From assembly GCA_002224055.1 (NCBI GenBank), contig AZLU01000179.1, positions 1-64,000 on the forward strand: 64,000 bases of DNA, in the 5' to 3' direction. Below are positions 6,112 to 64,000 of the stretch, piece by piece; position 1 is the first letter of the stretch; every line of letters starts with the position of its first letter. Origin of the DNA: Pezizomycotina sp. ARF18. Lineage: Eukaryota; Ascomycota. A model generated the notes under the pieces. That model did no database searches and was not told the origin of the DNA. It saw only the letters and a program-made list of their open reading frames with translations. Position numbers and translations under genes: made by a program.

Positions 6112-7371
6112 TTGAACTTGCTCGAACCACGGGACGACATATGTTTTCATAACGGCGCAGGGTGCCAGAGTGATGGGCAGTGCTGCTCGCAGGGGTGTTC
6201 GGACTATGCATGCGGTTGCACCAAGTTGTCGGGAACCTCATGCAGTAACGACGACGAGTGCTGCCTCGGGCCATGCAAAATTCTACTGCTGCTCTCTAAC
6301 GAGCACCTTCTGCCAGCGGGACGAACAGTGCTGCACTGAAAGCGATTTCTGCGACAGCTGGGCGTGCACACCGTGTCTGACGCCCGGCAGCCTAGGCAAC
6401 TGCACCAAAGTGGGAGGAGACAAAGCTTGCTGCCACGGGGCGTGCGATTCCCAGCACACGAGCAAATGCCTGTGCATCCCGCACACCGGCACGCTGTCCT
6501 CGAAAGCGTGCAAGACGGGGCTCGACTGCTGCTCGAATAACTGTACCGAGCAAGCTGTGCGGCTGCGGAGCCATCGGGGCGATTTGCGCCGCGGAAGCGG
6601 ACTGCTGTCACGGTATATGCGACAGCGGGGTGTGTACATGCCTCCCTCACGCCGGCTACATATCCACGCACCCTTGCAACTCACCGCTCGACTGCTGTTC
6701 AAACAACTGTACGTCCAACAGGTGCGGCTGCGGGGGTCCTGGGGCGGGCTGTGGCGTTGAGGAAGACTGCTGCGGGAGTAATAAATGCGTCTCGAACGTT
6801 TGCACCGAGCCTTGCGCGTCGGCGGGCGGGAACTGCTCCGCCGCGTCGGACTGATGCTCCGGATTCTGCGACAACAAAACGTGTGCCGGGTGTATCGGCG
6901 CCGGCTCCACGACGACCTGTTCCGAGGGGACTGACTGTTGCTCGGGCTTGTGCAACGGGTAAAATGCGTGGCTTGCCTACACGTCGGATCCCAGGCCAAC
7001 TGCATGGCAGCAGGGGATTGCTGCGAAGCGGGCGCGAAGTGCGGCGAGGATTCGAAATGCTGCTTATCCCGCGAGCCCCAGGGTGCTCTTCGACCGGTTC
7101 CAAGACTTACTGCTGCTCAGACTACGATATGTGTTACGAGGGGCGGTGTTGTCTGGCTGCGAACGCTGATGTTGAATGTGAGAAGAATGAGGACTGCTGC
7201 TCGGGAAAGTGTGTGGGAATGGTTTGCCAGGCCATAGATCCTTGTATTCCGAACGGATCTTTGTTGGTTTGCCTCTCCCACGAGGATTGCTGCGGTGGAT
7301 ATTGCGACAATACGGGCCGGTGCGTGCCTGGGGCGGTAAATACGGGGAGCGTTTGTGGATACAAGCCCTAG
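6112..7371 (+). CDS. Cysteine-rich protein with about ten tandem CC-knot modules; frame broken
   Basis: Across 1.26 kb the plus strand encodes a repeated module of the form C-x5/6-C-x4/5-CC-x3/4-C-x4/6-C, seen in pieces such as CSNDDECCLGPC, CKTGLDCCSNNC, CNSPLDCCSNNC, CGVEEDCCGSNKC, CEKNEDCCSGKC and CLSHEDCCGGYC. I count about ten modules, with short Gly/Ser/Thr linkers. The 'D/E-CC' core and spacing resemble knottin-like disulfide-rich folds found in small secreted proteins of fungi and animals. That is a resemblance in pattern only. The modules spread over all three frames, so the gene is interrupted several times or has unrecognised introns. The end (GSVCGYKP then stop at 7371) looks natural. 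No convincing signal peptide is visible at the start, so the true 5' end is uncertain. It could be a cell-wall or effector-type protein. The function is unknown. Confidence 0.6.
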
Positions 7372-14621: not shown

Positions 14622-17600
14622 TCAAGCCCCCTCCTCCGCCAACGCCTTCACCGCCGCCAACAGCGCATCGCAGCTCTGCTTCGCATCACCAAACAGCATC
14701 TTATTATTCCCCTTATAAAACATCGGGTTCGGAACATCGGCATACCCGCTCCCCATACCCCTCTTCATAACAACGGTCGCTTTACTCTTCCACGCGTGTA
14801 AAACAGGCATACCCGCGATGGGCTACCCTTTTCCATGGCGATGGGGTTAACGGTATCGTTTGCTCCGATGACGATTGTTAGGTCCGTGTCCGGGAAGTCG
14901 TCGTTTATTTCGTCCATTTCGAGGACGATGTCGTAGGGGACAGAAGCCTCGGCGAGGAGGACGTTGCACTGGCGGGCATGCGGCCGGCGACGGGGTGGAT
15001 TGCGAAGCGGACGTTGACGTCCTGGGGAAATAATGAGCATCAATATTATCTCAAGCAATCAGGAACATGGGGGGAGTATATAGGTGTGAAAGAGAGTTTT
15101 TTTTATGCTTACCATCCCCCTCAATATCTTCGTAAATTCACTAATAGCGTACTGCGCCTTCGCAACCGCCATACCGTACCCCACCACAATAATAACGTTC
15201 TTCGCGTGCACCATCTGGTCCGCTACTTCCCCACCGTAGTCCTAGTAATTTCCTCCTCGACCTTACTCCGTCTGCGCCGGTCCGCGATACCACCGAAGAT
15301 AACGTTTGTGAGGCTGCGGTTCATGGCGACGCACATGATGTAACTGAGGATACTACCGCTTACACCAATTAGGGAGCCTACGGTTGTCAACAGCGGGTTA
15401 TCGAGCATGAATCCCTCGCGACGAGCGCGAAGCCGGAGTAGGCGTTGAGCACGGTGATGACGACTGGCATAATCTGCGCCTCCGATCGCGCGGTCGTAGG
15501 TGTAACTTTAGCGAAGAGAGGGCTGTGTTCGCGCGAGACAACCAGCGGCGAATCATCGGTGCCGCGGGCGCCATGGTTACGAACGCGCCCATGGCGCGAC
15601 GTTTGCAGCTAGCATTCCGGAGTTTATGACGTGGCGCCCGGGTAGTATCATCGGCCTGGAGGACATTTTACCGGCCAGTTTCAAAAAGGCTACGATGGAA
15701 CCGGTGAACGTTACTCCGCCGATGAGGACGCCGAGGTAGCCGGTGACCATGTGCAGGACGGAAATGTGCGAGATTTCAGCCATGACGGATCCGATGGACG
15801 TTAGTACGGCGGCGAGACCGACGACGGAGTGCAGCGCCGCTACTGTCTGCGGGAGTTCTGTGGGCGAGATGCGCCGGCCGATTACCCCGCCGAGGAGCGA
15901 ACCGGTGGCGGCGACGGCGCGACTTGGATTAGTTGCTCCGGTGTGAATCCGCATGCTGCGAGGGATGCGAGTATCCCCGAGCTGACGCGAGGATGCCCAT
16001 CAGGTTACCGGAGCGAGCTGTGGATTGCGAGGACAGACCCGCCAGGGAACGATGCACAGCATTGAGGAGACGAGGTATCCGGCTTGTACCAGTCCCGCCA
16101 TACCGGTACTAACGGCGGCGATGTAGCCTCCGCCGAATAACACTCCGGGATCGCGTATAGCCATGGGTATTCGGGAGGGTCCGTGGGCCGTTTAAACATG
16201 TCCAACATGCGCTTCGTAATGACGAATCCTCCGGCGACGTTGACGAACGCGAGGAGGACGGACGCGGCGCCGAGGGCTTGAGGGATGGTTTCGGGGAGTA
16301 AGCCACCGCCATGACGAAGAAACCTCCGATGCCGACCATTCCGGAGATAGCGTTTGTGACGGACATCAGGGGTGAGTGGAGGGCTGGTTTAACACCCAGA
16401 TGACGCGGTACCCGATGAGGCCGGCTAGCGCGGAGGTGAAGACGTTGCTCATGAATAGCGGCCCGGTGAATTTACCGAGCGCGAGGGCGGTTCCCATTCC
16501 TCCGGTGACGAGTCCGACTTCGGTCGTAGCTTTCTGCCAGGAGTAAGCGCTTTGACTTCCTCCTTGGCTTCTTCCCTGCGGACTGGCGTTGGTGGCGGCG
16601 CGAGGGTGGTAAAGCCGGTAAAATTTCTCCGTTGAGTGTTACGAGCGAGCGGCGTATGACTTCGTCTTCTAAATCGATGCCGAAGTGCTTCTCCTTCGGT
16701 GACATGGAAAGCAGCAGCTTCGTGATGTTGTTCGAGTAGAGTATGGACGACTGCGTCGGCAACCTCGACGGTAAATCAGTGTAACCCAGCACCGTAACAC
16801 CCTTATGCCGTATCATCTCCCCCGCAATAGTAATCGCGCAATTCCCACCCGCCTCCGCCGCAAGATCAACAACCACACTTCCCGGTTTCATAGCCGATAC
16901 CATTTCTTCCGTAATTAATAGTGGGGCGGGACGACCGGGGATGAGAGCCGTAGTGATGACGATGTCGACCTCGCGGCACTGCTCCATGAACAGGCGCTTT
17001 TCGGCCTCGATGAACTCCTTCGACATGACTTTGGCGTAGCCGCCGTGGCCGGAGCCTTCCTCTTTCACGTCTTTGACTTCGATGATTCGCCGCCGAGGGA
17101 TTCTACTTGCTCCTTCGCGGCGGAGCGGGTGTCGAAGCCGCGGACTATGGCGCCGAGGCGGCGGGCCTATTTTCGCGAGCGTTAGCGAGTGCCTTTGATT
17201 AAATTGGCCGCTCAATTAGAGTAGTGAGTGGAGGAAAAAAGATACGTACCGTCGCGATGGCGCTAAGACCGGCGACACCGGCACCGATGACGAGACTTTA
17301 CACGGCGGAACTTTTCCTGCGCGGTGGTCTGACCAGTGATGTACCTTCCGAAGTGGTTGGAAGCCTCCAGGACGGCTTTGTAACCGGCAATGTTCGCCAT
17401 TGAACTTAACGCGTCGAAGCCCTAAAAAACACTCAAAAAATTCTTCTCAATTAGCCAGCATCACCAACAACCCTCCATACGTTCACCTGCAACCAATTCA
17501 AATGACGTTGAAGTCTAAAAAAAAAAAAAAAGGTAATTCAAAGTGTCTACGAACCTGCGCCCTACTAATTCTCGGAATCATATCCATTGCAATAGCCGTA

Positions 17601-18403
17601 ACTCCCTTCCGCTGCAGAGTCTCAACGAGCGGTTTACTCCTTTCTAAGTTGGGTGGATGAAAGAAATAAGCGTACACCCTTCCTGAAGCCGTTGACGAAG
17701 CTGTTGACGGAGCTGGAGTAGCGGGGCGCGTTGTGGTCCATGACGTCCGGGTTGACGGAGGTTAGGCGGGGCGGGCGGACTTTTAGGATGATGTCGGATT
17801 CCGTCCAGACGTTGCGGGAGTTGGCCATTGTTGCTCCGGCGGCTGGGGTTGGGAGATGTCAGCATCGCTACTCAAGTTTCCTTCGAGAGAGGAATAGAGG
17901 GAGAAAGAGGAAGAAGGGGGGTGGGGGGAGAGAAGTTGAGGAAGGAGGAAAGGGGAAGTCAGTACCTTGATACTCATGAATCGGAAACTCCGCTCCGAAC
18001 CCAGCGCCGTGCTCCACGAGCACCCTCTTAAACCCCTTCCTCAGCAACATCGCCGCGTTCTGCGGCGTCATGGCCACGCGACGTTCTCCCGGCAATACCT
18101 CCCTCGGGACACCAATGGTGATTTCCGACCAAGGGATCAGCGGCAGTTCGCGTGTCAGGTGGTCCGTCGTACCACCACCACCACCACCACCAGCACTGCC
18201 GGAAGAGGAAGAAGCTGGCGGTGGAGTGTTGGGAGCAGCAGAGGGAGGAACGGACCCGGGTTTGGCTTCCTGGCGGGGAGCCGCGAGGATGTACGGAAGC
18301 GCCGCTTGCGAAGTTGTGAGGCGGCGGAGAGGGATTTGATGGGCCGAAGGAGGGCGGGGCGGCTACCGGGGCCGGTGCAGTGGCGGATGCTTGGGGAGAA
18401 CAT
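14622..18403 (-). CDS. NAD(P) transhydrogenase, mitochondrial, proton-translocating
   Basis: This inner-membrane enzyme passes hydride between NADH and NADP+ coupled to proton flow. The domain order is that of the fused eukaryotic form. A basic, Ser/Arg-rich presequence starts at 18403. A Gly7 linker is encoded by (GGT)7. Domain I starts [20 protein letters not shown] and includes [20 protein letters not shown] and [20 protein letters not shown]. The Rossmann segment is [14 protein letters not shown], then [20 protein letters not shown] and [14 protein letters not shown]. The membrane domain carries [20 protein letters not shown] and [23 protein letters not shown] domain III carries [20 protein letters not shown] and ends [19 protein letters not shown] at 14622. 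Short introns are visible, for example around 17.85-17.95, 17.42-17.57, 17.17-17.25 and 15.02-15.11 kb. Single-base frame changes occur between conserved blocks. One is near 14812, where a base seems missing between GSP and [10 protein letters not shown]. As this is normally a working core enzyme, assembly error is likelier than gene death. Confidence 0.93.
18171..18191. repeat. (ACC)7 microsatellite inside the transhydrogenase gene
   Basis: Seven ACC triplets on the plus strand read as GGT on the coding strand and give a run of seven glycines between the mitochondrial presequence and domain I of the transhydrogenase. Length changes here would stay in frame. Confidence 0.85.
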
Positions 18404-37003: not shown

Positions 37004-37552
37004 TTACATCTGGTAAACGTTGGGGACGTTCTTGTAGACGTAGTAGTAGCTATGCTTGTTATCGAGGTAACCCTTCAGCTCCTTGACTTGAGCTCGGAGT
37101 ATCCGTTGTGGATGAGACCCTGGCGCAGAAATCCTGCATCTTCGGGCCATCGGTGATGATCTCGTGCGGGCATTCGTCTCGAAAGCGATCTTGTTGTCGT
37201 AGGTGAACTTGACCCGGCGATCCTTGTCGTAGTTGATGGACATCTTGGCCTGCTTGTTCTTGTGGGTGTCAAACCAGGAGAAGATCCGGGCGGGGTTGAT
37301 GGTGCGGTACTTGTTGGAGGTGACGACCTGGTCATGCTGTCCCGGGGCGCTGTAGACACTGGTTCCCATGGCGGAATCTCCGATCAACCACTTAAAGTAC
37401 GGGTGGTCGTTGTAGACACACCATCCGTACTGGAGCATAGCGTTCCCGGAGACTTCGTCATTCTTGAGGGTGCGGATCGGCTCAGGGGCTGGGGCAGCAC
37501 ACGCGGTGGTGGCAAGGAGGGCGGCAGTAAGGAGAGTCTTGGAGAAGAGCAT
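37004..37552 (-). CDS. Small secreted protein, unknown
   Basis: The start MLFSKTLLTAALLATTACAAPAP (positions from 37552) is a clear signal peptide with an Ala-rich cleavage region. This is why I prefer it to the in-frame ATG at 37747, which would bury the signal. The mature part reads AMLQYGWCVYNDHPYFKWLI, GTSVYSAPGQHDQVVTSNKY, FSWFDTHKNKQAKMSINYDK and ends NKHSYYYVYKNVPNVYQM at 37004, roughly 160 residues after the signal. Two or more frame changes lie in the 37.09-37.19 kb part, where another frame gives a more natural HEIITDGPKMQDFCA. Only a few cysteines are visible, so it is not a classic disulfide-packed effector. I cannot name a family. A TATA-like element lies about 200 bp upstream. 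Confidence 0.62.
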   Translation of the reverse strand: MLFSKTLLTAALLATTACAAPAPEPIRTLKNDEVSGNAMLQYGWCVYNDHPYFKWLIGDSAMGTSVYSAPGQHDQVVTSNKYRTINPARIFSWFDTHKNKQAKMSINYDKDRRVKFTYDNKIAFETNARTRSSPMARRCRISAPGSHPQRILRAQVKELKGYLDNKHSYYYVYKNVPNVYQM

Positions 37553-37752
37553 TTGAAATGTTTGGTTTTTGTTGTGGTTTTTGTTTCGTTGAGAACTGAA
37601 AAAGAGAGTAAGATCCTCGAAAGGTAAAGGCAAGTTGTTCGTTAAAGAGAGTGAGGAGCTGAAAAGAGAGTGATTGCAGTAGATGCTGAAGACCTGATCG
37701 CTGTTGATCGTTGTGATGATGAGAGAAACATTCAAAGGGATGTTCACCCGTC

Positions 37753-37760
37753 CTTATATA
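37753..37760 (-). promoter_or_regulatory. Possible TATA box of the small secreted protein gene
   Basis: TATATAAG on the minus strand, about 200 bp upstream of the chosen start. Fungal leaders of this length are common, so the placement is plausible but unproven. Confidence 0.35.
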
Positions 37761-38335
37761 ATGAAATTTCTCCAGATGTCCGCAGCAGGAATCATCATAA
37801 TAGAGCATATGAATATGTCTAGTGTCCAAGTCCTGACGAGAGATTTACATCAAGAGCGGAACTAAGCGTCGAGGCTAGAAGTAGCATGGACTCAAGCGTG
37901 TATAGTGCATATACTTTCGTTATGGCATGTTTTATTGTTAGGGGTTCCGCTGAAACAAATCGTCCCTTGTAATTGTGAATGTTGAAACATCCAATCATTT
38001 TTCCGCCACCAGAGTTAGGCCATGTTCGCCATTACTAGATAACCCCACAGATCTGTTAAAGCTGTCTTCCAGACTTTCTCGGAGGATATTTTCGCATGCT
38101 ATGCCGACGCGACCGAGCAATTCGTGGTGTGTGTATACAGTTGCCGAGGACTAAAACAATGCCTAATCGTTAGGCTTCTTGGGTCGTGAGCGCGGTAAGT
38201 GGACAATCTAAGCGTGGTTTTGGTTCGCTACCATTATCCTGAAACTCAGACTTTCCCTTTGTGGTATGGATCGAATTCATGTCTTCATGCCGACGCGGGC
38301 CATTTTCATGCACCGGATGCAGCCATGAAAAAAAT

Positions 38336-38576
38336 TGTAGGATGAAGATCAAAATTGTTAATTACATAAAGAACAAAACTATCTATCGAGGCAGTATCCT
38401 ACCGTTTATATACAAAAGGAATTCCATATAAAACGAATCTTCACGATGTTAATATCCTCGCATCGATACATGCCGTTTATTACAGAGCTCGGCCGAGGTC
38501 GGTCGATATATAGCGCTACGGGCAATTCTCGATATATTCGTGTTATTTAATATTCCTTTATTACTTATATCTAATA
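38336..38576 (-). repeat. LTR of the copia fossil (3' LTR in coding direction)
   Basis: About 241 bp with TG/CA ends. It matches the right-hand LTR end to end. The differences are almost all C/T or G/A transitions plus one length difference. Confidence 0.93.
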
Positions 38577-41500
38577 GCCTCCCTTACCCGCTACGGGCCG
38601 AGGCTTCCCTATTCTTTACGATCTAGGATAGGGCGCACTCTTAGCGCCTACCTTAGTTTAACGAATACCGGTAGAGCTAGCGGTTTAGTAAATATATCGG
38701 CGACGTTATCGGCCGATACGACGCGCGCTAGCGCGATCTTATAATCTTTAATTTTCTTCCTAATAAAATAATATTTAATATTAATATACTTAGTTTATTT
38801 ATTAATATTACGAGCCGCGTTTATAGCTAGGTAGTAGGCGTCCGTATTATTAATTTTTAATTTAACGAGAATTATCTTCTTATTATTAGTAGCCCCGGTC
38901 TACTAGTTTATAAGTAGACTCGACTAGAGTATCCTTTTAAGCTATACTACCTCCTAAATCGCGGCGCTAAGTACCGTATATTCTACCTCTATTATTAAAA
39001 TAGCGATGTAGTTTATTTATAAGATATAAATATACTACTCCTCCATATATTATAAAGGCGTAGCTACTAACTAAGCGGTAATCTTTAGCTCGAGCAAAGT
39101 CGCTATCTATATATCCCTAAGGCTATATCTCTCTATCGGTACTACTTAGGCTAAAGCGTAGGCTATACTTACGCGTCCCCTATAGATAGCGCAGTAACCG
39201 CTATATCGCGGTATATTATAAGTCCTTTAGGTAGATAGTAAAAGTAGCTAATTCTAACTAAGCGAAGGCCAGTTCTAAATGCGTCTAAACTATTAGATAT
39301 TAAGTTTTTCTAAGTTTACTATATAGTCCTCTAATCTAACGATTTAATTCTCCTTAGGACGGCGTAGCGCGGGATATTAAACTATTAATATTACCGCGAC
39401 TACGTAATTTTATATATTATAACGTTAAAGTAATCTATCGATATACGCCTCCTATAATAAGTATATCGTCCTTTCGTAATAATTTTTCTTAATTTAAGCT
39501 CTTAAGAAGTATACCGCGTTATTAAATTACTTAATATTAAGCCGTTTAAGTAGCTTTTCTTTAATCTTATCGGCTAGTTTATTATATATAATAAGTAAGT
39601 TATCGATAAATATAAAATATATATACCGACGCCTCCCGTATTAATATCTCTTAAGCTATAGTATATACTCGTATTATAGAGTAATTAATATATTCTATAC
39701 TAGTTAGTACTTTATAAAGTTTATTATTTTATATTAATAGCGAGATACGTAGATTATATATCGATTTAGTAAAACGGAGTAGTATATTACGCCTTCGCGC
39801 GTTAGTTTATTAGGAATCGTTCTATATTAGTATATATTTTTAGGCGCGAGTATATTTACTTATTAATTAGGCGCTAGATCCCTTTAAAAATATAGAGGTA
39901 ATATTCCTATATCGTACTTTAAGATTTAACGCGGTAGCTATTGCTAGAATAGTAAGGCTATAGAGAATTTAACGACTGATAAATATATATCGTTGTTTTA
40001 TTAATTTTATAGATGGCCTAGAACTACTAGTCTTACCTTATAGCGAATAATCTTATTTTAAGCGTTTTATTTATAGCGAAGTATCTATTTTAGCGGTAAT
40101 AGACGCTATTATTTAATTTTTCTCGTATCTATTTAAATTAGTTCTTATACGCCGTACTTTTTTAGTAAGAGTAGTTCTTTTTTATTATTATCTACTATTT
40201 TACTTTCTTCGACGATTATATTACCTAAGTATAGATAACGGTATCTAAATCTTTAATATCTTAATATACGGCGAGGGCTACTACGTTAGTAAAATTAAAG
40301 AACTACTCTAAGCGGCGAGTATAAAATCGTCGTACTTAATCTATTGCGGTAAATTTAATCTAGCGGCTATTATAAATAAGAGGTTTATAGTATTTTACGC
40401 TAAGTTAGATTATATACTCTAACTATCTTACCGCTATTTTTAAATCCTATATATTTTCTTTTTTATACTCTTATAGCGAGTTTATTAGTAGGATAATAAT
40501 CTTTTACCTATATATTAGTATTAAACGGGTAGAGTTTACTAATATCTAGTTTATAGCCTCGATACGCCTTATAAGGCGTTTTACCGCGAAGTACCTTTAT
40601 AGATAATATATTCTTTAGTTTATAAATATATCGGGTAGCTTTTCTTATAAATAAAGCGGTAGATCTATATTATAAAACGCCGCGCGCGCCTTATTTATAA
40701 TAGTTAGTAGAAAGCGTTCTACTACTCCGTTTTAGCCGTAATCATTCGGTACGTACTACTACTACTCGATACCGTACGAGGCTAGTATATCCTTAAATTT
40801 ACTATCGTTTAACTAATTATTATATTTACCGCCGCTATTATAATAAACGACGAGAATAGAGTATAACGATACTAAATCGCGGCCTCTTAAGTTAGAGCGC
40901 TTTATAGCGTATTTAGTAATTTACGTTTTAATCTATTTATCTATTATCTACTAATTATTCTTCTTATTACTATATAGAAGTATCTAGCTATATCGAGTTA
41001 TATCATTAACTATACTATTAAATCTATTACTATTTCCTAAACTCTACTATTTACGGGGCGCTATCTATATATTTACGTAAATCTTTTATAGAGGCGCGGT
41101 TTCTTAAGTCGTTAGCGCTTAGGCGTCTAATAGTATATACTTACCTATTATATATACTTTATAGAGACGTTAAATATACGTACCCTCTATAATAGTTATA
41201 CCTAAATTTTATAATAATTAACGAAGATTAATTTTATTTAAATAGCTAAGCGCCTAATATTATTCTTACGCTATTTACTTTATCCTTATAATAAGCGCCT
41301 ATTCGCTATATATTAAGCTAGTTTATAATAGTTCGTTACTATTCTATATAGCTATTAGGAATATCCTTCTCTACTTAGGCGCTTAAAGAGCGATTTTACC
41401 CGTTTTACGGTATTAAAACGTTAGTATATCTTAATCCGAGAGATTAAACGTTAGTCTCCGTTTAACTAATTATATTACTAATAGTAGCTTAGCTTATCTA

Positions 41501-43180
41501 AATTCCTTATAATAATAGACGCTAGTTATTATAACGACTCGGCGTTTACTATTAATATTTACTTTAAGGCGTACGTTTCTAATATAAGTAGCTAAAACGA
41601 CGTAATCGTTTTCTATACGTACGCGGTAAGGCGGTTTAAGCTATACCGGCTCCGCGAGATCTTTCTATTATTCTATAATATAATTATTATTTACGTTATC
41701 GGCGTATTACTAACCGTTATTTAAACTAGTACGGTACGTCTTATAATATTATTCTAAAGTATTGTTATTTCGCTTATATTTTATAGCTATCTATATTTAG
41801 TCTTTATTCTCTTTATAGTTTATAGCTAAGGCGGCGCCTTTTAGCTTTATAGGTAGGCGCGGTAGTTAGCGGCGGGCTAGCGTAAAAGGAGTCTATCTTA
41901 TTCTTTTAGCGTTATCTAAATAATACTACTAGCTAATACTATCTCTATAATTAAACCGGGTCTAAAATCCTTCTTTATTATTAGCGTTAATCGTAAGATT
42001 AAACGCTTATAGGTAGTAGTACTATATATAGCTATATTCTTTATATATATAATACTATACTTCCTATATTAATACGCTTTACGGTAGCGCGCCTTACTAA
42101 TTACTATAGCTATTAAATCCTTTACGGCTATAATCTCCTCTTAGAGGGCGTTTACGCTATCTCGATATATTCTACTTTCTTTTACTACTATTAGTATTTA
42201 TATTATTATTAATATCCTTATTACTAGCGCCTATTCTTATTACTATATAGGCTATATCGTTATTACTCTTATTTTCTTTTAACGCGGCTCGTATCAGCGC
42301 TAGATTTATTATACGTAAGCTTCTATACTTTCTAACGTACTTCTTTTTAGCTTAGTAGGCTTATTATTTACTTAAGATTTATTATAACGCCTCTTACTAC
42401 TATTAGTAACGTAATAAAGGATAATACGGTATTATACGACTTAGATAATCCTTTTAAGATATTCTCGATAAGCTAATTATCGTAGAGTCTTAAGTTAAGA
42501 GTTTTTAGTTTTACCTACTATTCTTTCGCGCGGTTAATATACGTATATATAGTATCGTCGTCTTTTTAATATATATTTATTAGCTAAAGTTCTAATATTT
42601 ACTAATTCGCCTTATTATTTATAAAGTTTATAGATTTAAAGGCTATCTAAACGGCCTATACCCTTTATTTATTAACGTTAAAGTAATAAATCTACTCGAT
42701 TCTTATTACGGAAGTAATAAGTACTATTATCGTATTATAATAAGCCTATTCGTCTTTATTAAGCTTCTTATCCGAGGTCTTAAATTTTACGATAATATCG
42801 GCGAGCTTTAATATACGTAGTTCTATAAGTATACGCCTCTTTTAGAGTAGCTAGTCGCTACTCTACTTAAGTAGTAGGATAAGATTATAGCGAATCGCTT
42901 ATTATACGATATTAAATAGCTCGGGTATACTTAGCGCTATATAGTAGATATCTTCTATTAGAGTTAACGAGCGTAATATTAAAATTATTTACTCTACTAT
43001 AGCCGAGCGTGCTCGTAATATTTTGCGACGGCGCGATAGGCGGTAAGATAAGGATAGAGTTATTCCTTAAGAACGTACTACGTTATGAGCTTCGCGACGT
43101 TACTATCTAAGATCTAGATTATCGTTTTAAGATAGCGCGGGATATGGCTATTATTTTTTATAATGTAGTTATTACTACTA

Positions 43181-43422
43181 TGTAAGATAAAGATTAAAAT
43201 TGTTAATTATATAAAGAATAAAACTATCTATTAAGGGTAGTATCCTACCGTTTATATATAAAAGGAATTCTATATAAAACGAATCTTTACGATATTAATA
43301 TCCTCGTATCGATGCATACCGTTTATTATAGAGCTCGGCCGAGGTCGGTCGATGCATAGCGCTGCGGGCAATTCTCGATGTATTCGTGTCGTTTGATGTT
43401 CCTTTATTACTTACATCCAACA
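43181..43422 (-). repeat. LTR of the copia fossil (5' LTR in coding direction)
   Basis: About 242 bp with TG/CA ends. The terminal inverted repeat is TGTTGGATG / CATCCTACA when read on the minus strand. Confidence 0.93.
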
Positions 43423-44482
43423 AAATTACATAAGGCTCCGTTTCATGCTTAAAGGCAACAAGTTAACTTTGATGCGTCTAAACGCTATATTCTCCCAGTA
43501 TTGAAATATGGTGGCGTTCTTCATGCAACCGAGTTGAAGGCTTCACACAGTCTGAGCCGGCTGTGGAGACAAGAAGTATGCTCAGATTAGAACGCAGATG
43601 CGGGTCACGCGATAAGAGTTATGACGCTGGATGAGCATCCAACTTTTCTCAAAAGGCGTTTTGGCCAAGTAACGAGATTCTCCTATATGACTATCAACAT
43701 AGTTAGCTTGCTCTGCTCTATTCGCCCAGCAAAAAAAATTTCCTGCTATTTCCATGCAGCCAATGTACTATTCTATAAGGCATGAGAAAGTCTGAAAAAC
43801 AGGTTGAGAGGAGCCCTCCCAAAATATTCCCCATCTCGAAATTGACGCAAATACGTAAAACATTTGCCAACGTTCTCTCTCTCTTGCTCTTCCTTGCAGT
43901 ACTGATTATTGAAACGCCGTGATCGAAACGGATTTCAAGTCTTTTTGGGCTTTTTGCCTTGAAATAAAAGCATTTTAAAATTCATAGGTCTCCCAAGCGG
44001 CAACACTCCACGCGTGCACCAGTGCATGAAACTACAGGAAAGCTGAACAACAAATTCGCAAAGAACTCAGTCTAACAGGCTATTTGGTTTAACTGCGTTA
44101 GGCTGAACAGGGCGGATATATCCGAGAAATTTATTCGCTCTTAAAGCGCAGAAGCGTGTACCATCTTATGCTAGTCGAGCACAGTCGCATTGTCCAGCGG
44201 AGGCTAAAAAACAGATGCCTCTAATTTCTCAGAGAAAAGGCTGATCGTCCGCGACCGGACAAGGCCAGCAGAAGCTAGGATATACGACCCTAAAGCATTT
44301 TTATTACAGCATCTTAGGTTCAGATACAACAAAAGCGTCATAAAGGGCTAACTAAGGCTAAACTGGCACACAGGTGGTAAACGAGTCGAAACAAAACAAA
44401 GCTCTAAGATCAAGAAGGCAAGAACAAAAGAGAAAATCAAGAAGATATTATTAGGATCGTCGCTCAAGCTAAGTGATACCAC
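43423..44482. other. Intergenic between the retroelement and the AAA+ gene
   Basis: No coding signal on either strand. Base composition returns at once to that of the rest of the window, so RIP has not visibly spread outward. Confidence 0.5.
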
Positions 44483-60213: not shown

Positions 60214-61332
60214 ATGTCCTCTCCTCCAAAAGCCAGCACTTCCCCAGCGGCGCAGGCTCCTGCCCCCACAGAGCCAGTGATAGGCGCCATCCAAGCCGAC
60301 GACGGCTCCGGACCGAACAGACTCGGACGACTACGACTCGGTGTACGAGTCCGACTCCGCCAGCCTCACAGAGACGCTTCAGTCGACCGTGAAGAAGTGG
60401 CAATACGAGAACAACCGGCGGTATCACGCCTACAAGCCGGGCCATTGGGTCGTTCCGAACGACGAGCAGCAGCAGGAGCAGATGGACATATTCCACGAGG
60501 TTTACACGAGGACCACCGCGGGGGAGCTTCACCTGGCGCCGATCGGGGACAAGCGACGAAGGTGTTGGATGCGGGGACGGGACGGGGATATGGGCAATTC
60601 AATTCGGTACAAGTCTGATTCCTCTTGATTCTATTTTTCTTGCTGACGAAATTTTCTCTTTTCGTAGCGGACAGATACCCCTCGGCGCAAGTAATTGGGA
60701 ACGACCTCTCACCCATTCAGCCCAACTGGGTCCCGCCCAACTGCACCTTCGAGGTCGACGACTTCACGCAGGACTGGACGTACTCGCCCAACTCCTTCGA
60801 CTTCGTCCATGCCCGCGCCCTCCACGGCGCCGTCGCTAGCTGGGACCACTTCTGCGCCCAGGCTTTTAAAGTTCTCAAGCCCGGCGGCTGGATCGAAATA
60901 TGCGGCGAGATCGTCGAGTTTCACTCCGACGACGACACCCTACCCGCGGACAGCCACGTCCAAGAATGGATGCGGAACATCCACAAGGCGACCGAACTAT
61001 CGGGCAAAACCGCTAACGCGCATAAAGTCGCGAAGGCCGCGCTGGAGAAAGCGGGCTTTGACATAGGGACGTATAAGCAGGAGGTGTTTAAGATGCCGGT
61101 GGAACGTGGCCGAAGGATAAGGCGTTGAAACAGACCGGTGCATGAACCTTGTGAATTGTTTGATGGGGATCGAGGGTTTGTGCTTGCGCTTTATACGAGG
61201 TTTTTAGGGATGTCTGAGGCGGAGGCCAGGGGACATGCGCAGAAGTGTCAGGCGGAACTGAAGAATAAGAAGATACATTCGTATTTTCCGTTTCAGGTTA
61301 CGTACGCTCAGAAGCCCGCGGTTGCGACCTAG
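60214..61332 (+). CDS. SAM-dependent methyltransferase, LaeA-like
   Basis: A class I S-adenosylmethionine methyltransferase of the LaeA-like group, which is very abundant in filamentous fungi. LaeA itself is a nuclear regulator of secondary metabolism; most relatives are uncharacterised. The start is MSSPPKASTSPAAQAPAPTE. Then come DSASLTETLQSTVKKWQYEN and RRYHAYKPGHWVVPNDEQQQ, the usual entry of the family. Motif I (VLDAGTGTGIWA type) lies at about 60560-60595, where one base seems missing. A 61-bp intron (GTACAAG...CGTAG, 60608-60668) follows, then ADRYPSAQVIGNDLSPIQP. Next are WVPPNCTFEVDDFTQDWTY, DFVHARALHGAVASWDHFC, FKVLKPGGWIEICGEIVEFH and HKVAKAALEKAGF. The C-terminus is FPFQVTYAQKPAVAT with a stop at 61332. 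About 350 residues is normal. The neighbour downstream is the convergent arginine kinase. Confidence 0.92.
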
Positions 61333-61675
61333 TACAATGCTCCACGGTTGGGGTATTGAGAAGGAGACAAAGGCCCTCAGGGATGGAAGGGGGAGGGGGA
61401 TTTCAGGCTGGGCTAATTAAGTAATTCGAAAGCAACCTCATGATCTTGTAAATATTTTTTTGACGATTGTTCGCGATTAGATTCTTCCTAAAGCTACCTG
61501 GTGCCCTGACGAGCACATTTAAAAGCGTTCCTATCTACGATCACTGTTGGGCACCACGAATCCAAATACGCATAAAGGTTTATTAATCCATAACATCATA
61601 CTCGATTTCATTAATTTGCCATGCCGTTTCAAATTGCTAAATATCGCTGGTCATCGTCACGGTGAAAATACTGTT
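61333..61675. other. Short intergenic between convergent genes
   Basis: 343 bp shared by the 3' ends of the methyltransferase and arginine kinase genes. AT-rich with AATAAT-like elements; nothing else seen. Confidence 0.5.
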
Positions 61676-62740
61676 CTAAGCCTGCTCTTCCTCAAGCTTG
61701 ATCATCTCAAGATACCATCCTGGAGAGCCTTGACAGCTTCGAATTCGGTCAATCCCATCCTACGTTTGTTGGAGATATCATAAACTCCACCCTTAGACTC
61801 CGTGTGCTCGCCCGCAGTTCTACGGACCTGGAGCTGGTACTTGCGGCGACCTCCTTCAGCGCAGCCTCGCCTTTGCGGCAAGCTTAGGTAACTTGATGTG
61901 AACAGACGCGCGGATCGTAGTACCCAGGTTCGTCGGGCAGAAGGTTAAATAACCCAACCTGTCATCACGGAGAATGGGATCTTTTCTTTCAATAGCCTTA
62001 ATCGCCGTTACCAACCTCCTGAAGATCTGCTTCAAATCAGCTCCCTTCTGCATGGATATGATGCGGATGTGATCCTCCTCGTTACCCACACGAGGAACAT
62101 CTTCGCGTCGTTGTGGTAGATTCCGCGACCGAGCGGCCAGAAACGGCACGCGTTCGCGGCGTGCAGGAACCGGTCGCCTTCCTTGAACAGGAAATGGTCG
62201 TCAATCAGTTGCTGCTGAGTTGCTTTGTCCATGCCCGTGAGCTGGTAGTATGTACCCTTTGGCTCGCCTGTGAGACCCGAGAGGGAGTCCGGACGGCGGC
62301 TTCCATGTCCTTGTAGTTTTGCTCCGTGAGGCATGGCTTAAAGCTGTAGTACTTAGGGAACAGCCGCAGCGCACGCGGATGGAGATGATGTACTTGTCTT
62401 CCGGGTCGATATTCTTGAAGACGTTCAGGTCACCGAAGTCGGTCGGGGGTTGCTGCTCCTTGGGACCGAAGCCGTGGTAGTCTTCGATGATAGGTTGAAA
62501 AGAGGAGCGAAGACCGTGCAGGCAGCAGCGTCGGGGCGTACACGCCGATGCCGCTGTCGAGGTTCTCCACGCCGGACTGGATTACATCCTGTAAGTAGCC
62601 CCGTTCGGCGTCTTCTTGTTTTTGAGCTCCTCGAAGACCTCCTTGTTGGGCACTCTTAAGGAGCGAGTGGCATTCCGAGGAGTTTTGGAGCTTCTGGAAG
62701 CCCGCGTCGAGCTTGGCGTAACTTCGCTGGTGGAACTCAT
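61676..62740 (-). CDS. Arginine kinase (phosphagen kinase)
   Basis: Transfers phosphate between ATP and arginine, buffering cytosolic ATP. Both domains are present. The N-terminal alpha domain has [36 protein letters not shown] and [20 protein letters not shown] (guanidino-binding loop), then [20 protein letters not shown]. The catalytic domain has [60 protein letters not shown] and [12 protein letters not shown]. It then has [20 protein letters not shown] (catalytic Cys near 61.94 kb), [39 protein letters not shown] and the end IKLEEEQA (stop 61676). The five phosphate-binding arginines, the NEEDH Glu, the loop Glu and the Cys are kept. The length, about 354 residues, matches the usual 355. 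No intron is seen. One-base gaps occur near 62738-62700, 62088 and 61705, among others. It looks much more like invertebrate arginine kinases than bacterial ones, by memory of family sequences. Confidence 0.93.
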
Positions 62741-64000
62741 TTTGTCACGTCGGAGGAAGAGGACGAAGAGGGCAAGGGATAGCAGGAGAACGGTATAGCG
62801 TTTGATGTAAGCTGTGGTTTTTGGATAGTTAGCTTGCTATGGCAGGCTAGCTTCTTTTGTGTTATAGTCTACAATTGTGAGGCTTGCTCCAGTTCTTATA
62901 TGCTACGAAATATTTAACGTATCCTTTTATCTGGGGCATGTTTGGGTAAAATCCTGCTGCTGACGACCGTGACGCTGACGAAGCTTGACGGCGAGGAGTT
63001 TCGAAATGGAATCGTATGAGGGGTACATGTGTTGTTTTCTTCTCCATTTTTTCTAAAATCATATCATACTACTATTTTCTTCCAACACAAGGAGTGACAA
63101 TGGGAACAAAGGAGCAGCTAGAACCCTACGAGCAGTATAAGTAATGTGTGCCAGACTAAGTGCCAGACTAATACAGTGGCCAGCTTCGGCCTTAGCGAAG
63201 CCCGATTCTTTCCGTGCGGGGTTCCCTTTCCAGATCAAAAGGTAACTTATAAAAGGGTTGTTGGATAGAGTATGATCCGTGACTATGATAGCCCATTTGG
63301 ACGACGTGCAAACCCCGCATGCAGGGTCTTGGACCATATGATCAACGACGAGACATTTATCCGCTGTAACTTCAGTATGAATTGAAGGAAATCGTGGGAT
63401 ATAGGGCCATTCAAGTCCCGCGATACACGCGTAGGATACCAGGCAAACGGGGAATATTTCACTCATGATTTTGATATGGTTTGATTCGAAGAATCTTCTG
63501 AGTCTCGTTAGGTAGAATGAACGAAGCGTTACCGAGTCAAAGGGAAAAGGCGTGAACGAAATGTATGACCGTGGGAAGAGTGAGGCCTAGGCGTAGATAG
63601 TAAAACAATCTATAACGGATCCAGGGCAAATGAGATATAGATATAGAAGTTTCCACCGTATCTAGGCGTTGAAAGGTAACTACTGCGGTAATCTCAAGTG
63701 CGAGCCGATCGTTATATACTGACTACTAGGTATTGATTAATACTCAACGCTCCCGAGCTACACGATCCTCCTATGCGTGATTGATTATAATTGAGGCTCT
63801 TTTCAATTTATTCTTTTGCAGTTTGAAGTCTCAGATTACCTGCCATTTCAGGTCTAGGTAAAGAGTTAAATAATAAGTCAATTTCACGGAATATTGTCCG
63901 GCGACCCCACTTGCAAGCGCCTGAGTGCCACGTATCGACAACCCGTAGTTTTGAGCCTCAATTGCTCCGGTGCCCAAGATCAACCATAAGGCCTCGTTTC
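62741..64000. other. Right edge, mostly intergenic
   Basis: The first 150 bp are the promoter of the arginine kinase gene. A minus-strand frame of 135 codons (63059-63466, MSEIFPVCLVSYACIAGLEW) has a hydrophobic start that could be a weak signal peptide and a few cysteines. It could be a small secreted protein (chance about 0.2). Nothing else is supportable. Confidence 0.35.

Follow-up and report, generated by a model that had tools for sequence, protein, structure and literature searches.

Phosphagen kinases buffer ATP in cells that experience bursts of demand. Arginine kinase, one of this group, is an energy-storing enzyme described chiefly from invertebrates. According to excerpts from a 2019 review, which also discuss bacterial cases, neither plants nor fungi are known to have phosphagen systems (PMC6429109). 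The best-matching single-domain solved enzyme for the gene described here, chain 7re6, is named in excerpts from a second paper as the arginine kinase of the tick Rhipicephalus sanguineus, and the same source treats arginine kinase as an invertebrate allergen (PMC12387690). No published report of a fungal arginine kinase was seen in the titles and opening lines of abstracts among the literature matches listed, a weak negative; unnoticed fungal homologues may well exist in protein databases.

Here, we characterize an arginine kinase gene near one end of a 64,000-nucleotide stretch of DNA, analysed in its entirety and referred to as the window.

A complete arginine kinase gene spread over several reading frames

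A preliminary description had placed an almost full-length, animal-type arginine kinase on the minus strand of the window, at positions 61676–62740. Both coordinates and strand are correct: the gene begins with an ATG at 62740, and its stop codon ends at 61676. The gene, its leader and the frame pieces that carry recognizable domains are:

61676–62740, minus strand: arginine kinase gene; complete, spread over several frames, intron-less
62741–62800, minus strand: pyrimidine-rich leader ahead of the ATG (60 bases, C+T fraction 0.73)
62430–62744, minus strand: frame piece matching the N-terminal phosphagen kinase domain, PF02807 (E 4.7e-7, above gathering score)
62032–62337, minus strand: frame piece covering the opening portion of the catalytic domain, PF00217 (E 5.9e-13)
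61856–62200, minus strand: frame piece with the middle of PF00217, including NEEDH and CPTNLGT (E 1.5e-29, and matches to solved structures)
61702–61944, minus strand: frame piece covering the final portion of the catalytic domain, [13 protein letters not shown] (E 1.7e-12)

Of ten frame pieces compared with Pfam, seven belong to the arginine kinase region. Four of these seven matched—one to PF02807 (ATP-gua_PtransN) and three to PF00217 (ATP-gua_Ptrans)—and three did not; the matches exceed the gathering scores and place the gene in the phosphagen kinase family. The enzyme is present as a whole, but in no single frame of the assembly, a point that the preliminary description did not mention. 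A frame-aware protein-to-DNA alignment, written for the purpose and run with four reference enzymes (337–342 codons covered), required nine frame changes each time (seven deletions and two insertions), with no stop codons and no introns in 342 codons. The frame of the ATG at 62740 differs from that of the first aligned piece, so the true count of frame changes may be one higher.

When read through, with an X at each frame change, the protein matches 49 distinct solved sequences. The best single-domain match is arginine kinase 7re6 (522 bits), as compared with at most 227 bits for creatine kinases and 59–70 bits for protein-arginine kinases. Two other identities are rejected: (i) an McsB-like protein-arginine kinase, on the difference between 59–70 and 522 bits, and (ii) a creatine or taurocyamine kinase, on the creatine kinase scores, the 43–44% identity to the domains of the taurocyamine kinase 4wo8, and the intact arginine loop. 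A tblastn search of the 64-kb window revealed no convincing second copy of the gene; one match elsewhere had an E value of 0.29.

The motifs named in the preliminary description (guanidino loop SGIGVYAPD, NEEDH and CPTNLGT) can all be found, with SGIGVYAP and the D that follows it in separate frames. In the numbering of Limulus arginine kinase, all 14 residues checked are present: D62, S63, G64, I65, Y68, R124, R126, R193, E225, R229, C271, R280, R309 and E314. We take this set to serve arginine binding, phosphate binding and catalysis, and R124, R126, R229, R280 and R309 to be the five phosphate-binding arginines, which are kept as had been claimed. Position 65 (V or I allowed) is I, as in Trypanosoma cruzi, and among the neighbouring positions G310 is replaced by R and T123 by I. 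Across ten reference rows, the window protein deviates in 18 of 172 constant columns. When each reference row is scored against the other nine, T. cruzi deviates in 20 of 199 columns and the nine arthropod rows in 0–9 of 179–188 each. With base errors included, the window protein has therefore diverged to much the same degree as the enzyme of the trypanosome.

The encoded enzyme would be an arginine kinase of ~355 residues, probably monomeric and cytosolic; by eye, no targeting signal was noticed. Its predicted reaction is the reversible transfer of the terminal phosphate of ATP to free L-arginine, and the resulting phosphoarginine may act as a buffer of energy and phosphate.

Frame changes are best read as assembly errors

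The heavy frame breakage overlooked in the preliminary description is common to other genes in the window. One of these, a conserved gene, provides a yardstick for frame errors:

14649–18117, minus strand: NAD(P) transhydrogenase gene, aligned to Escherichia coli PntA and PntB

Over 925 codons, and with four GT–AG introns as modelled, the transhydrogenase gene contains 17 frame changes (14 deletions and three insertions) and no stop codons. The arginine kinase gene, with 9 of the 26 events in the two genes, has a density of frame changes that is statistically indistinguishable from this (binomial p 0.25). Four or five of the nine arginine kinase frame changes, depending on the reference row, lie by runs of at least three bases (expected fraction ~0.25). 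With both genes pooled, 13 of 26 do so (expected fraction 0.28, p 0.016). This mild homopolymer excess suggests, without settling the matter, errors of the sequencing type. Further, stop-to-stop frames in the window reach 277 amino acids at most, despite the presence of conserved genes, indicating an indel-rich assembly.

It is conceivable that the arginine kinase was transferred and has since decayed into a pseudogene; the nine frame changes would then be genuine, and the G310R replacement and other substitutions at constant sites would fit. Yet 342 codons without a stop and an intact set of active-site residues speak against decay, the frame-error density is no higher than in the transhydrogenase gene, and the frame changes of both genes are enriched at base runs, as sequencing errors would be. 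We regard decay as unlikely. The frame changes are best read as assembly errors, on the grounds of a density like that of the yardstick and of the excess at base runs; there is hence no reason to call the gene dead.

The gene appears resident in a fungal contig

Two further features bear on the host of the gene:

60214–61332, plus strand: methyltransferase gene, presumably LaeA-like; neighbour of, and convergent with, the arginine kinase gene; also frame-split
38001–44000, no strand: AT-rich block with a dinucleotide pattern resembling repeat-induced point mutation (GC 0.30–0.36 per 2 kb)

One of three pieces of the neighbouring gene matches methyltransferase Pfam families. The distance of 343 bp between this gene and the arginine kinase gene, given in the preliminary description, is exact (61333–61675, between two stop codons). 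Among ten further pieces from the window, five have Pfam matches at an E value of 0.01. One is to the Fungal AAA+ ATPase lid, above the gathering score; two are to Fungal rhodopsin, one just below the gathering score (26.9 versus 27) and the other below it (20 versus 27); and the remaining two are to the 3-beta-HSD family and to transhydrogenase. Repeat-induced point mutation (RIP) is a process of filamentous ascomycetes, and a low (CpA+TpG)/(ApC+GpT) ratio is its mark. At 40–42 kb the ratio is 0.03, an extreme RIP-like bias. Together, the fungal domains and the RIP-like block point to a filamentous ascomycete as the probable host.

Two stretches elsewhere in the window are recorded as side observations. 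At 6116–7371, on the plus strand, there are overlapping cysteine-rich, repeat-like frames with CC..C patterns, of which the piece at 6541–7368 has no Pfam match. At 37004–37753, a frame with a start that by eye resembles a signal peptide follows an upstream stretch, and likewise has no Pfam match.

The codons of the arginine kinase gene resemble those of its surroundings. Its GC3 is 0.73, as compared with 0.71, 0.76, 0.75 and 0.81 for four other window genes, and its codon usage correlates with that of the four genes pooled at r 0.90. As a control, each of the four genes was compared with the other three, giving values of 0.76–0.88, while 500 versions of the arginine kinase gene with randomly chosen synonyms gave a mean correlation of 0.47 and a maximum of 0.71. 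The flanks are similarly unremarkable: the 1.26 kb upstream (62741–64000) is ordinary in composition for the window, with 49 of 82 stretches as far or farther, and so is the 343 bp intergenic region (an equal or greater distance in 156 of 308 stretches). The same test singles out the RIP-like block, where 0 of 81 stretches are as far or farther. Both codon usage and flank composition are, then, those of the host, and the earlier statement that this is not a stray contig stands as far as composition and codons tell.

These data bear directly on the idea that the assembly is chimeric or contaminated, with invertebrate DNA (from mite, tick or nematode prey) fused to a fungal contig. The gene does lie less than 2.4 kb from the window end, and the contig is indel-rich. 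However, the codon usage is the same as in the four other genes, and both flanks are ordinary in composition. The arginine kinase gene also has no intron, while invertebrate genes usually contain them, and its identity to the compared arthropod rows is only 67–72.5%, which would still be compatible with an unsampled animal. A join of this kind is improbable, in our assessment; animal DNA joined to the contig would not be expected to give such codon usage and flanks, and the gene looks resident.

Phylogenetic placement with arthropod-type enzymes

A search of GTDB genomes with an alignment identified 17 bacterial genomes that carry an arginine kinase gene, mostly Campylobacterota but also the Deinococcus group, Gammaproteobacteria, Deferribacterota and desulfur-type bacteria. 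The same search with the single window protein as query returned no relatives, and two scans of viral contigs found none either. The tree was built from 25 rows, including nine arthropod-type enzymes, that of T. cruzi and ten of the 17 bacterial loci; nematodes, insects, molluscs, tardigrades and further fungi are not represented in it. For solved chains other than 7re6, with 9fhn, 9fig and 9fho among them, the organisms are our assumption, aided by titles on spider and Daphnia enzymes: we take 2j1q to be T. cruzi arginine kinase, 4rf6 a sea anemone enzyme and 9fhn a house dust mite allergen sequence.

The window protein is 67–72.5% identical to nine arthropod-type rows and ~71% identical to T. 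cruzi, as compared with 48–55% for ten bacterial enzymes and 47–51% for the two domains of 4rf6. In the tree, it falls within an arthropod-type clade that includes T. cruzi (support 99/97), in agreement with the earlier classification as animal-type; T. cruzi is its nearest row (86/78). When T. cruzi and the taurocyamine kinases are omitted, the arthropod-type clade including the window protein is retained at 100/100, and the inner position of the protein is weakly placed.

Alternative groupings, partly chosen after inspection of the tree, were compared by AU tests. Grouping the window protein with the bacterial rows gave a p of 1e-5. An arthropods-only clade, with the window protein and T. 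cruzi outside, gave 0.0125, and 0.021 was obtained for arthropods plus the window protein with T. cruzi outside. For the converse grouping, arthropods plus T. cruzi with the window protein outside, the value was 0.12. With T. cruzi removed from the data, the arthropods-only clade gave 0.36; with the window protein removed instead, it gave 0.048. The arthropod-type placement is firm as judged from these alignments. Nesting inside the arthropods, as opposed to a position as their sister, is not firm, since the AU values of 0.12 and 0.36 allow the window protein to stand beside them.

Origin of the gene

We propose, with a probability of roughly 0.6, that the gene is a resident, codon-adapted and probably working arginine kinase of a filamentous ascomycete, gained by horizontal transfer. 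The source would be the arthropod-type branch of arginine kinases; possible donors include an arthropod, another moulting animal, or a protist that, like the trypanosomes, has an enzyme of the same type. The transfer would be old enough for the codons to match those of the fungus now. The preliminary description had offered transfer from an invertebrate host or prey as one explanation. The arthropod-type placement and the exclusion of bacterial kinship (AU p 1e-5) agree with this in part; nesting inside the arthropods is not firm (AU p 0.12 and 0.36).

Old vertical inheritance, in which a gene already present in the last shared ancestor of animals and fungi was retained in a few fungi, is the other explanation that had been raised. 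It would account for the fully fungal codon usage, and a position beside the arthropods is compatible with the AU tests (p 0.12 and 0.36). Nevertheless, 67–72.5% identity to arthropods against 47–51% to 4rf6 is unexpected for an old vertical copy, and phosphagen systems are said, in excerpts of the 2019 review, to be unknown in fungi (PMC6429109). We think this history unlikely. Horizontal transfer is the better reading because the animal enzyme 4rf6 (presumably sea anemone, and one of few animals compared) is far more distant than the arthropod enzymes. Gain from an arginine kinase-bearing bacterium is very improbable: although 17 bacterial loci carry such genes, the best bacterial identity is 55% (versus 72.5% to the tick enzyme) and grouping with the ten bacterial rows in the tree is rejected, so that, among the bacterial types sampled, such an origin is rejected; an arthropod-type gene in some bacterium outside this sample would be the sole exception.

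A more specific proposal, that the gene supports a working phosphoarginine energy buffer in a filamentous ascomycete and was gained from an arthropod-type lineage, perhaps by a trypanosome-like route, is tentative, and we rate it somewhat below even odds. If the gene is resident, it would represent (i) the transfer of an enzyme of primary metabolism into a fungus, (ii) a case in which fungal phosphoarginine can be tested by a simple assay, and (iii) a second non-animal eukaryote, beside trypanosomes, in which to ask how arginine kinase spreads. A fungal copy could also matter for allergen cross-reactivity. If the buffer works, fungi would have a phosphagen system, which the review excerpts describe as not known in that kingdom (PMC6429109).

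Comparison with known systems

McsB shares the catalytic domain family with the window protein and differs in its low score (59–70 bits); the window protein also has the N-terminal domain and the loop of free-arginine kinases. The bacterial arginine kinases belong to the same family and, in the rows checked, have the same active-site residues, but with 48–55% identity they form a separate clade.

The tick enzyme 7re6 (EC 2.7.3.3) is much closer: 72.5% identity over 338 columns, an equal length class, the arginine loop and the phosphate-binding arginines. The window gene differs from it in the fungal host, the lack of an intron, R at position 310 and A at position 312, the last of which is shared with some mite-like rows, Daphnia and T. 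cruzi. T. cruzi 2j1q is the closest row in the tree (71.3% identity) and is itself an arthropod-type enzyme in a non-animal; I65, Q99, Q143, F203 and E337 are shared by the two proteins and absent from the others of the ten reference rows. The hosts belong to unrelated groups, and the sister relation is not firm. The gene belongs to an established enzyme family but occurs in a host where it was not expected.
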